Shown piece by piece: positions 2,113-12,465 of a stretch of DNA of 64,000 bases (the first letter of the stretch is position 1; each line of letters opens with the position of its first letter). The DNA is from Pseudoalteromonas lipolytica. GTDB lineage: Bacteria; Pseudomonadota; Gammaproteobacteria; Enterobacterales; Alteromonadaceae. The notes under the pieces are model-generated. The model was not told the origin of the DNA. It saw only the letters and a list, made by a program, of their open reading frames with translations, and made no database searches. The position numbers were made by a program, and so were the translations under genes. The stretch spans positions 444,108 to 508,107 of the forward strand of contig NZ_LJTC01000002.1 of assembly GCF_001306915.1 (NCBI RefSeq), read 5' to 3'.

Positions 2113-3018
2113 TTAACTCATTTCTATTGACTTCACACGCTTAAAGCGCTCAAGCCACTTATCGCCAAACTGAAAAAACGCGAGACTAATCATAATGATG
2201 GTCGCGCCAACAATCAGAGCTTGGTCAATGGGCTCATCATTAAGCAAACCACCAATCGCAATTGCAAAACTTGGTGTGATCAGGGTTGTTAATGCGACCG
2301 TGCTGGCGTTCAACTTTTGCAATACATGAAAATACGCCAGCGCACCAATTAATGAACCAAACACGCCTAAGTAAACAATTGAGTACAGTGATTTTGCACT
2401 CCACATCTGGCTATTAAGTTGGCCATCTACCAGCAACCAAGTAATAAAAAACAGTGGGGTTACAAAAACCAACGCACCAAATGTGGTGGCCATTGGATGA
2501 ATAGCAATTCTTACCCGTTTGATCATCACACCGCTCAAACTAAAAAAGCACACTGCCATAAATACATATAACAGGCCACTAAGCTGCTCTACTCCCCCTT
2601 GAATATGGCGCTGGCTTACTAAAAATAAACCAATTAAGGCACAGCCAAGTGCGCCAAGCTTAATGGCGCTGAACTTAGGTTCGTTCAAAATCTTTTGCGC
2701 AAGTAAGCCCGATAAAATTGGCGCAAGACCAAACATCAATGATATTAACCCTGAAGGCACTGTTTTAGCGGCCATGTAGCTTAATAACATGCCGCCAAAA
2801 ATACCTATGCTTGAATAGCCATAAAGGAATAAAGCACGGCGATGCCAGGGCACTCGGATATTGGCAACAGCAACGACAAACGAAGCCAACACCAGCCCCA
2901 CCAGCATGCGTAAAAACACAGCCAGGGTTGGTGCTACCGTTTCACTACTCCAAACAATACCCAGTGGTGTTGTTGACCAAATCACCACCATTAAAAAATA
3001 TGAGGCTTTAACAGGCAC
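2113..3018 (-). CDS. EamA-family (drug/metabolite transporter) permease
   Basis: This is an inner-membrane protein of 301 residues with about ten hydrophobic segments arranged as two EamA repeats, typical of the DMT superfamily. Members export amino acids or other metabolites; the substrate cannot be read from sequence. The start is GTG at 3018, preceded by AAGGAA at about 8 bases. The opening residues are PVKASYFLMVVIWSTTPLGIVW. About 200 bases of leader lie between a good promoter and the start and hold a short frame and mutually exclusive hairpins, so attenuation is possible. By analogy with YddG-type EamA exporters an aromatic amino acid is conceivable but unproven. Confidence 0.85.
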   Translation of the reverse strand: MPVKASYFLMVVIWSTTPLGIVWSSETVAPTLAVFLRMLVGLVLASFVVAVANIRVPWHRRALFLYGYSSIGIFGGMLLSYMAAKTVPSGLISLMFGLAPILSGLLAQKILNEPKFSAIKLGALGCALIGLFLVSQRHIQGGVEQLSGLLYVFMAVCFFSLSGVMIKRVRIAIHPMATTFGALVFVTPLFFITWLLVDGQLNSQMWSAKSLYSIVYLGVFGSLIGALAYFHVLQKLNASTVALTTLITPSFAIAIGGLLNDEPIDQALIVGATIIMISLAFFQFGDKWLERFKRVKSIEMS

Positions 3019-3049
3019 TAGCTTATTCCTTTAAAAAGGCGAAAAAAGC

Positions 3050-3220
3050 GGAAGAAAATTTAAAAGGGAAATAACCAACCGCTTAGAACGCGGTTAGTAA
3101 AACTTACTTAATTAACCGCAGCAAATAACTGACCATACGACTGATGAGGTCAGGCGCATACAATTGTTTGTTGGTCGTTGGTTTAGCTGCATCATGGTAT
3201 TTAATAAAGTAAATTGAAGA
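3050..3220 (-). promoter_or_regulatory. Candidate attenuator leader of the EamA gene
   Basis: On the minus strand a 27-codon frame (ATG ATG at 3195-3190, TAA at 3114-3112) ends in codons for ...VVWSVICCG. Its last codons contain segment 1, GCGGTTA (3119-3113). Segment 2, TAACCGC (3096-3090), can pair with segment 1 or with segment 3, GCGGTT (3082-3077). The 2:3 hairpin is followed by a pyrimidine-rich stretch. An earlier 6-bp stem CTGACC/GGTCAG lies at 3129-3153. The mutually exclusive pairing is seen directly; regulation is inferred. The short frame has no clear ribosome site, so a metabolite-binding RNA is an alternative. Confidence 0.45.
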
Positions 3221-3226
3221 AGCTTA

Positions 3227-3255
3227 AGAATCCGCCTAAATGATGATTTTGTCAA
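3227..3255 (-). promoter_or_regulatory. Promoter of the EamA leader
   Basis: On the minus strand there is a perfect -35 TTGACA (3255-3250), a 17-base spacer and a weak -10 GATTCT (3232-3227). Transcription would begin near 3220, about 25 bases before the leader frame and 200 bases before the EamA start. Confidence 0.45.
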
Positions 3256-3334: not shown

Positions 3335-3424
3335 TTTAATTTCTTTGATTTATAACAAAACTATTTAAGTTTTGTTAAACAAGTTATATCTTGCTTGCCT
3401 CTCACGAAGTTTAAGGGGCAAAAA

Positions 3425-4627
3425 GTGCTTAAAAATAAAACAATAGGTAGCATGTTAATTGTTGCTGGCACCACCATAGGTGCAGGAATGCTGGCATTGC
3501 CTATCGCCTCCGCAGGGCTTGGTTTCACAACAGCGTTATCACTTATCTTACTTACATGGGTTTTAATGACCTACACAGCATTACTGATGCTAGAGCTACA
3601 TCAATATGCCGACAGAGATGCAACCCTCAATACGTTAGCTAAGTCATGGTTAGGTAAACGTGGGCAATGGGTCGCTAACTTTTCTGTGATGTTTTTGTTT
3701 TACGCATTATGCGCTGCGTATATCGCAGGTGGTGGTGCGCAATTACAAGAAAAGCTCAACAATGGTTTATCGCTTTCTTTAGCGCCGCAAGTTGGCTCAG
3801 TTATTCTGGCTGTTGTGATTGGTACTGTGGTGACACTCGGTACCAGCAAAGTCGATAAGCTTAACCGCGTACTGTTCACTATTAAAGTATGCGTACTAGC
3901 CAGCTTATTTTATATGCTGACACCTTATGTTCATGGCCAACACTTACTTGAAATGCCAATTGAACAAGGTCTGATTTTATCTGCAATCCCAGTGGTGTTT
4001 ACCTCGTTTGGTTTTCATGGCTCTATTCCATCGATTGTGAAATACGTGGGTTTAGATATCAAAACACTTCGTAAAGTAATGGTGGCAGGTGCAGCATTGC
4101 CTTTAGTAATTTACATTTTTTGGCAATTACTTAGCCAAGGTATGATGAGTCAAAGTGACTTACTACAAAGCCAAGGGTTACCCGGTTTTGTAAGCAGTGT
4201 TGCTAGCATTGCTCACAGCCCACACGTTGCCACCGCTGTGAACATTTTTGCTGATTTAGCACTGGCCACGTCTTTCTTAGGGGTGAGTTTAGGTTTATTC
4301 GACTTTTTTGCTGATGCATTTAAAAAAGGTGATGGCAGTAAAGATCGTATCAAAACAGCCTTGATCACCTTTATTCCACCGCTAGGCTTTGCGCTATTCT
4401 ACCCGCAAGGGTTTATTATGGCACTTGGCTACGCCGCCATTGCGCTGGTTATTTTAGCGGTGTTTTTACCGGTTGCTATGGTCTATAAGCAACGAAGCAG
4501 CAAACCTGATGCGGGTTACCAAGTTAAAGGCGGTAATATTGGCTTAGCACTGGCCGCCCTGTTTGGTGTGCTTATTATTAGTGCTCAAGGTTTACAAATG
4601 GCGGGGCTTATTCCAGCAATTGGTTAA
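3425..4627 (+). CDS. Aromatic amino acid permease (HAAAP family, TyrP/Mtr-like)
   Basis: This 400-residue inner-membrane proton symporter probably imports tyrosine or tryptophan. It has about eleven membrane segments. The N-terminal GTTIGAGMLALP motif (residues about 15-26) is the hallmark of TyrP/Mtr/TnaB proteins. The start chosen is GTG at 3425, with AAGGGG seven bases upstream; an upstream TTG at 3395 lacks such a site. A TyrR-like box lies upstream and a strong terminator follows. Length agrees with E. coli TyrP (403) and Mtr (414). Sequence alone does not separate tyrosine from tryptophan specificity. Confidence 0.88.
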   Translation: MLKNKTIGSMLIVAGTTIGAGMLALPIASAGLGFTTALSLILLTWVLMTYTALLMLELHQYADRDATLNTLAKSWLGKRGQWVANFSVMFLFYALCAAYIAGGGAQLQEKLNNGLSLSLAPQVGSVILAVVIGTVVTLGTSKVDKLNRVLFTIKVCVLASLFYMLTPYVHGQHLLEMPIEQGLILSAIPVVFTSFGFHGSIPSIVKYVGLDIKTLRKVMVAGAALPLVIYIFWQLLSQGMMSQSDLLQSQGLPGFVSSVASIAHSPHVATAVNIFADLALATSFLGVSLGLFDFFADAFKKGDGSKDRIKTALITFIPPLGFALFYPQGFIMALGYAAIALVILAVFLPVAMVYKQRSSKPDAGYQVKGGNIGLALAALFGVLIISAQGLQMAGLIPAIG

Positions 4628-12380: not shown

Positions 12381-12465
12381 TGGTGCGGATGGGGGGACTT
12401 GAACCCCCACGGCCGAAGCCACCACCCCCTCAAGATGGCGTGTCTACCAATTCCACCACATCCGC
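12381..12465 (-). tRNA. tRNA-Leu (anticodon GAG)
   Basis: This is an 85-base class II tRNA with encoded CCA. On the minus strand it begins GCGGATGTGGTGGAATTGG, has the anticodon arm CCATC-TTGAGGG-GGTGG (anticodon GAG, reading CUU/CUC), a long variable arm (TGGCTTCGGCCG region) and the T-arm GGGGGTTCAAGTCCCCC. The acceptor stem GCGGATG pairs with CATCCGC. It lies directly after secG, as in many gammaproteobacteria. Confidence 0.97.

Follow-up and report, generated by a model that had tools for sequence, protein, structure and literature searches.

A putative tryptophan attenuator leader ahead of an EamA/DMT transporter gene in Pseudoalteromonas and related marine bacteria

Analysis of a 64,000-nucleotide stretch of Pseudoalteromonas lipolytica DNA (hereafter the window) was directed at the region preceding a transporter gene of the EamA/DMT family. 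On the minus strand, from about 3255 to 3026, an attenuator-like leader stands ahead of this gene (3018-2113); both a second reading of the sequence and the comparison of relatives bear out the original prediction of such a leader in front of an EamA gene and show it to be real and conserved. The features of the locus are as follows.

3395..4627, plus strand: divergent neighbour encoding a TyrP-like aromatic amino acid permease (PF03222, 394.7 bits; TIGR00837, 388.6 bits against a cut-off of 350), given as context only
3250..3255, minus strand: -35 element TTGACA
3227..3232, minus strand: weak -10 element GATTCT, at 17-nt spacing
3112..3195, minus strand: leader ORF of 27 codons and a stop, from ATG at 3195 to TAA at 3114-3112, with a second ATG at 3192 (sequence and codon comparison)
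3186..3194, minus strand: segment 1 (TGATGCAGC), at the start of the ORF, with pairing to segment A possible (duplex -9.7 kcal/mol)
3133..3135, minus strand: putative Trp control codon, codon 21 (comparison of leader ORFs)
3113..3120, minus strand: segment A (TGCGGTTA), overlapping the leader stop codon, candidate antiterminator strand; paired with B in 90.3% of the cells of the core alignment
3090..3097, minus strand: segment B (CTAACCGC), partner of A or of C by conserved complementarity
3075..3082, minus strand: segment C (GCGGTTGG), forming the B:C hairpin; paired in 95.3% of the cells of the core alignment
3052..3074, minus strand: pyrimidine-rich, G-poor tract after C, a possible Rho site by base composition
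3038..3051, minus strand: segment D, just upstream of the Shine-Dalgarno sequence, pairing with the B-C loop and/or C (changes on both sides of loop-D, and fold)
3027..3032, minus strand: Shine-Dalgarno sequence AAAGGA of the transporter gene
2113..3018, minus strand: EamA/DMT transporter gene, GTG start at 3018, 301 residues

The transporter protein matches Pfam PF00892 at 91.2 bits against a cut-off of 28.2, while reaching no NCBIfam cut-off and giving no PDB sequence match at 1e-3. Several named exporters figure among its best NCBIfam hits, all of which are below cut-off, and the EamA/DMT family also contains importers. The EamA part of the predicted "EamA exporter" stands, with export as a putative direction of transport. 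Among the flanking ORFs of 14 loci, inspection by eye noticed no constant Trp-related neighbour.

Matches with E below 1e-80 were taken as orthologues across 108 Pseudoalteromonas genomes, that of the window included, and 84 were obtained (loci L018-L101, the window's own among them). A core-form leader precedes 59 of these, two carry a leader with an intrinsic terminator and 23 have none; in the last 250 nt before these 23, no ATG-started Trp ORF of 15-46 codons was found. The strict hairpin pattern occurs in 57/84 orthologues, L101 being one of them, and L048, L064 and L065 add it with a changed base, whereas L100 and L101 have a different leader version with a T-rich tail. Seventeen orthologues stand beside a TyrP-like gene and are devoid of the leader (L041-L047 and L049-L058); the gap measures about 180-220 nt in 15 of them and is longer in L053 and L055. 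A search with model R1, built from 54 distinct core sequences, matched 60 of the 108 genus genomes once each, where 59 matches were the source leaders or copies of them and genome G106 provided the sole independent place. There (L210, G106:C1:4132900-4135700) the leader stands before the remnant of a broken, mostly deleted transporter gene. When the model was run on a sample of 196 genomes of the family, it gave four matches at E <=0.1, all in the same genus.

Transcription likely starts upstream of the leader ORF, judged from the sequence, because 57/59 leaders have a TTGAC 50-72 nt upstream of their ATG. Of the near-consensus promoter that had been proposed, the -35 consensus is retained; the -10 element matches at only 3/6 positions, and no site was called by the promoter scan at the -35/-10 of the leader. 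The ORF is preceded by no clear Shine-Dalgarno sequence, as had been remarked earlier. The proposed three-segment arrangement, with A lying across the leader stop and a pyrimidine-rich stretch following the B:C hairpin, was confirmed on the sequence; segment 1 and D (3051-3038) are elements that the original prediction did not contain.

The leader ORF encodes the 27-residue product MMQLNQRPTNNCMRLTSSVVWSVICCG. A Trp codon is present in all 59 core Pseudoalteromonas leader ORFs, while shuffling of the same regions gave a mean of 5.8/59 and a maximum of 10. The codon is at position 13 or 14 in 46/59 leaders; in the window's own group (13/59) it is codon 21 or 23, and the place matching codon 13/14 is taken by Arg (His in L030). 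The window has one Trp codon and its relatives have one to three. Codon changes were counted in 51 of the 59 leaders, arranged by hand in 11 groups, with the first and last four codons dropped and single-step changes only: among close relatives 49 were synonymous and 51 nonsynonymous, against 24.7% synonymous expected (p ~1e-7, uncorrected for relatedness), and changes at the three codon positions numbered 49, 65 and 95. By eye, the frame is kept in two indels relative to close relatives, 27 nt in L034 and 6 nt in L082, the former being, in comparison with L033, an in-frame duplication within the ORF that repeats NLSVVRPLL. By these sequence comparisons the ORF evolves as a coding sequence and behaves like a putative leader peptide.

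A Trp codon lies 13-16 nt before the core of A in 33/59 leaders (16 nt before the GCGG core in the window) and 10-17 nt before the GCGG core in 35/59, the other 24 having their only Trp codons 37-64 nt before it. In the trp operon of the same genome, there are two tandem WWW leaders, both with a hairpin and T-run of their own behind them, and by eye the last Trp lies 14-15 nt before the GCGG core. These tandem leaders, MNKTIQITIWWWHS and MNYIATLTHHWWWRLA, are located upstream of trpE on the minus strand at about 3400-3080 of locus L188 (G000:C45). Resemblance to the trpL type, the trp operon leaders included, extends to the short Trp-codon ORF that ends at the antiterminator strand, to the choice between A:B and B:C and to this spacing. 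In the EamA leader the short ORF is putative by sequence and carries codons of the amino acid that would be sensed, and the mutually exclusive stems place the antiterminator strand just past the expected position of a stalled ribosome, A:B being backed by conservation rather than covariation. It departs from the type in that a transporter and not biosynthesis would be the target, that one to three separate Trp codons replace WWW, and that in core Pseudoalteromonas a T-run is mostly absent and D adds a further pairing.

In the TnaC arrest peptide, the spacing between the Trp and a conserved C-terminal Pro and stop is typically fixed, and tnaA lies downstream. A TnaC-like arrest, in which free tryptophan would stall the ribosome at the leader stop and control access downstream, might be read from the Trp at codon 13/14 in 46/59 leaders, from L031, L032, L060 and L066, where it precedes the stop by 14-16 codons, and from the pyrimidine-rich stretch after the stop. 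However, the leader endings vary (CCG, RCG, GL, LSV, RRT, VV, VG, LD) and share no C-terminal arrest motif, the Trp of the window lies 7 codons before the stop, neither the fixed Trp-to-Pro/stop distance nor tnaA downstream is found, and the controlled gene is not a tryptophanase, which together make this reading very improbable. TnaC of tnaCAB (PMC8429421; PMC3902921) and the EamA leader have in common a short leader in which a Trp is important and the pyrimidine-rich stretch after the stop; the conserved alternative stems set the EamA leader apart.

Folding of the leader gave -51.1 against -33.6 +/- 3.9 for shuffles (z -4.48), none of 200 shuffles being as good, and the stems folded alone gave -13.3 kcal/mol for B:C and -9.4 kcal/mol for A:B. 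Segments A, B and C are nearly invariant and mutually complementary across the core leaders, as a B segment obliged to match two partners would require, and such low variation leaves little room for covariation inside the genus. In relatives the two alternative stems persist, the test that the original prediction had set for its leader-peptide attenuator layout, and the layout is supported by it.

Collapsing identical sequences from A to the start codon reduced the 59 core leaders to 54 for the covariation tests. Loop-D pairing shows changes on both sides at 6/10 pairs. For B:C and loop-D taken jointly, the covariation score reaches 0.207, compared with 0.132 in shuffles and at most 0.067 when slid; none of the 500 shuffles equals this score or the number of cells with both sides changed, whereas two of the five measures do not beat them (both-side-changed pairs 8 vs 7.3; pair types 23 vs 25.7). 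On most measures A:B covariation did not rise above that of its shuffles, and RNAalifold on the core leaders returned B:C only, neither A:B nor loop-D. Outside the core form the flanks of B:C vary compensatingly, with G-C 22 and A-U 17 at one position and G-C 33, A-U 6, U-A 2 and C-G 1 at another; the 45 stems of that alignment were chosen for pairing, which biases it towards pairing, and are not necessarily the same as the 45 hairpin regions described below.

The D pairing differs in form between the window and the rest of the core. In the window it joins AAGCGG (3084-3079) to CCGCTT (3051-3046) and so competes with B:C, while elsewhere in the core D pairs mostly with the loop and a pseudoknot with B:C is also possible. 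Most of the printed examples of the predicted A:B state show the loop together with C folded onto D and onto the pyrimidine tract. Pairing of segment 1 with A was tested in 23 hand-picked leaders of the 59: it beats codon-shuffled ORF starts in 22/23 representatives, with a mean z of -1.6 and z < -1 in 16, the window itself scoring -0.98.

A metabolite riboswitch or a protein-binding leader in which the ORF is incidental would agree with the strong structure, the possible pseudoknot of B:C with loop:D and the weak ribosome site of the ORF. Nevertheless, the Trp ORF in 59/59 leaders, the synonymous bias and two Rfam scans with nothing on the leader at gathering score (four sub-threshold matches lay around it, none on it) speak against it, and such a reading appears extremely unlikely; the earlier view that an RNA switch is equally possible is not upheld on the same grounds. 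The tRNA-Leu(gag) at 12381-12465 on the minus strand is the window's only tRNA and alone reached the gathering score in Rfam.

Beyond the core form, 68 upstream regions were compared, comprising L100, L101, 43 out of 58 genomes with a match outside the genus, 18 new ones and named records, after removal of duplicates. The other 15 of the 58 genomes, L206 among them, were left out; L156, L162, L165 and L166 were omitted as repeats, L193 and L195 dropped as duplicates, and L204 repeats L183. The hairpin pattern was found in 45/68 regions and was lacking in 23/68. In 42/45 a Trp ORF ends <=60 nt before the hairpin (shuffled mean 3.6, maximum 9), and in 27 of the 45 a Trp codon lies 10-18 nt before the A-like core, the counts of 45 and 27 being generous since the hairpin and A-core patterns are loose. 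Among named records, Colwellia and Pseudocolwellia carry the leader with a T-rich tail, the six Shewanella records comprise four that match the pattern but have no T-rich tail and two that do not match, and the Psychromonas record shows no fit to the hairpin pattern. In many marine bacteria the transporter is thus preceded by a decoy ORF with Trp codons and by mutually exclusive hairpins, which most likely switch it according to the speed at which Trp is read.

The sequence that follows B:C separates the core leaders from those elsewhere, clearly though not absolutely. A T-run of at least four follows B:C in 5/54 core leaders, the window not being one of them, against 35/45 elsewhere; by a loose test (5 T in 10 nt) the figures are 28/54 and 40/45. 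A simple scan calls B:C of the window terminator-like with the tail TATTTCCCTT, at a density of 7 such sites per 3 kb where 3.5 are expected, and a residual intrinsic terminator may be present there. A T-run of at least four after D occurs in 15/54 core leaders, including the window and much of its group; with 39/54 having none, D was rejected as a general intrinsic terminator, yet in the window its hairpin may act as one. Over the region running from C through D, the 54 leaders have C and G fractions of 0.32 and 0.08, compared with 0.20 and 0.21 farther upstream, and a strict C-rich/G-poor cut is passed by 25/54 leaders against 9 of 10,800 random 36-mers. Such a pyrimidine tract would suit a Rho loading site that is hidden in the form combining A:B with C:D.

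Sequestration of the Shine-Dalgarno sequence was rejected as the switch, constrained folds of the 54 leaders giving no consistent difference: its predicted unpaired mean is 0.30 with B:C and 0.33 with A:B, the latter being higher in 32/54. In the window alone, predicted exposure falls from 0.41 to 0.27 in the A:B state. Pairing between the pyrimidine tract and the Shine-Dalgarno sequence, viewed by eye, seemed not to track Shine-Dalgarno changes across the groups.

We regard it as probable, on the strength of the sequence comparisons, that the leader is a ribosome-mediated tryptophan attenuator controlling the DMT-family (EamA) transporter gene. Weighing against it are the one to three Trp codons where the trp operon has runs of three, the 24/59 leaders with distant Trp codons, the measures on which A:B and the joint structure fail to beat their shuffles, the RNAalifold result, the rarity of a T-run after B:C in the core, the nearly equal Shine-Dalgarno exposure of the two folds, and the 23/84 orthologues devoid of the leader and 23/68 outside regions devoid of the hairpin pattern. 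For the signal, the ON/OFF sign and the output step, we infer the following scheme. When charged tRNA-Trp is scarce, the ribosome would stall at the control Trp codon, having cleared segment 1 but not yet reached A; A:B would then form, and D would be paired with C and the B-C loop, permitting expression. When Trp is plentiful, the ribosome would reach the stop codon and cover A, so that B:C forms as the OFF state, and in an untranslated leader segment 1 could hold A and again favour B:C. In many related genera B:C has the form of an intrinsic terminator, and starvation would turn the gene on there; the same sign is assumed for the window. In the OFF state of core Pseudoalteromonas, the pyrimidine tract and D would be left single-stranded, allowing Rho to load behind the leader ribosome or translation to be reduced. 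Output in the core is probably Rho- or translation-based, because a T-run rarely follows B:C and covariation links the loop to a segment just upstream of the Shine-Dalgarno sequence. An attenuator of the starvation type would suit uptake no less well than export, and we consider that the substrate could be Trp or a related aromatic compound, probably taken up.

An inverted output in core Pseudoalteromonas is a serious rival. Here Trp would be sensed in the same way, but stalling would produce A:B with C/loop:D as the OFF state and B:C would be ON at abundant Trp, the D helix beside the Shine-Dalgarno sequence (or a terminator in some groups) acting as the OFF element, which would suit an exporter of excess aromatic amino acid. 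The covarying D pairing just upstream of the Shine-Dalgarno sequence, the main pairing of D with C in the window and its exclusion of B:C, the T-runs after D in 15/54 leaders and the exporters among the sub-cut-off NCBIfam hits are in keeping with it. Conversely, the B:C terminator of orthologues elsewhere would require the sign to flip within one orthologous gene, the Shine-Dalgarno sequence lies outside D and its mean exposure is not lower in the A:B state (the window itself excepted), and most of the 54 leaders lack a T-run after D. On balance the inverted sign seems unlikely, and expression upon starvation is preferred. We consider it nearly as likely as not that within an orthologous gene the output of a Trp attenuator has been swapped, from an intrinsic terminator in related genera to a covarying loop-D helix or pseudoknot beside the Shine-Dalgarno sequence in core Pseudoalteromonas, possibly with the sign reversed.

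T-box RNAs have no leader peptide, and the transporter family in the Streptococcus suis case differs from EamA/DMT. B. subtilis bmrCD encodes a multidrug ABC transporter that is induced under antibiotic pressure, and its leader is unrelated in sequence to the EamA leader. Control of a tryptophan uptake gene at the RNA level would be shared with S. suis trpX, placed under T-box control in PMC9382623. PMC4191407 describes ribosome-mediated transcriptional attenuation of a transporter gene at the bmrCD leader, a likeness that, as a precedent in BmrC/BmrD, weakens the earlier statement that leader-peptide control of an exporter would be unusual. Attenuation of trp and pheA, the TrpR/TyrR regulons and a predicted COG0733 tryptophan transporter in Vibrionales are treated in PMC5343134, and attenuators have been surveyed in PMC2965389 and PMC2659441; the consulted parts of these three sources make no mention of an EamA gene of such kind. 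By title, none of the literature matches listed concerns the EamA leader, with supplements, subscription papers and preprints outside the scope.

Overall, the Trp leader offers a testable clue, tryptophan or a related aromatic compound, to the substrate of a widespread EamA/DMT transporter, and would extend amino-acid attenuation from biosynthesis to a transporter. Riboswitch expression platforms are known to couple the same sensor with different outputs. The orthologous genes described here form a natural series in which one leader-peptide sensor seems to drive two outputs.
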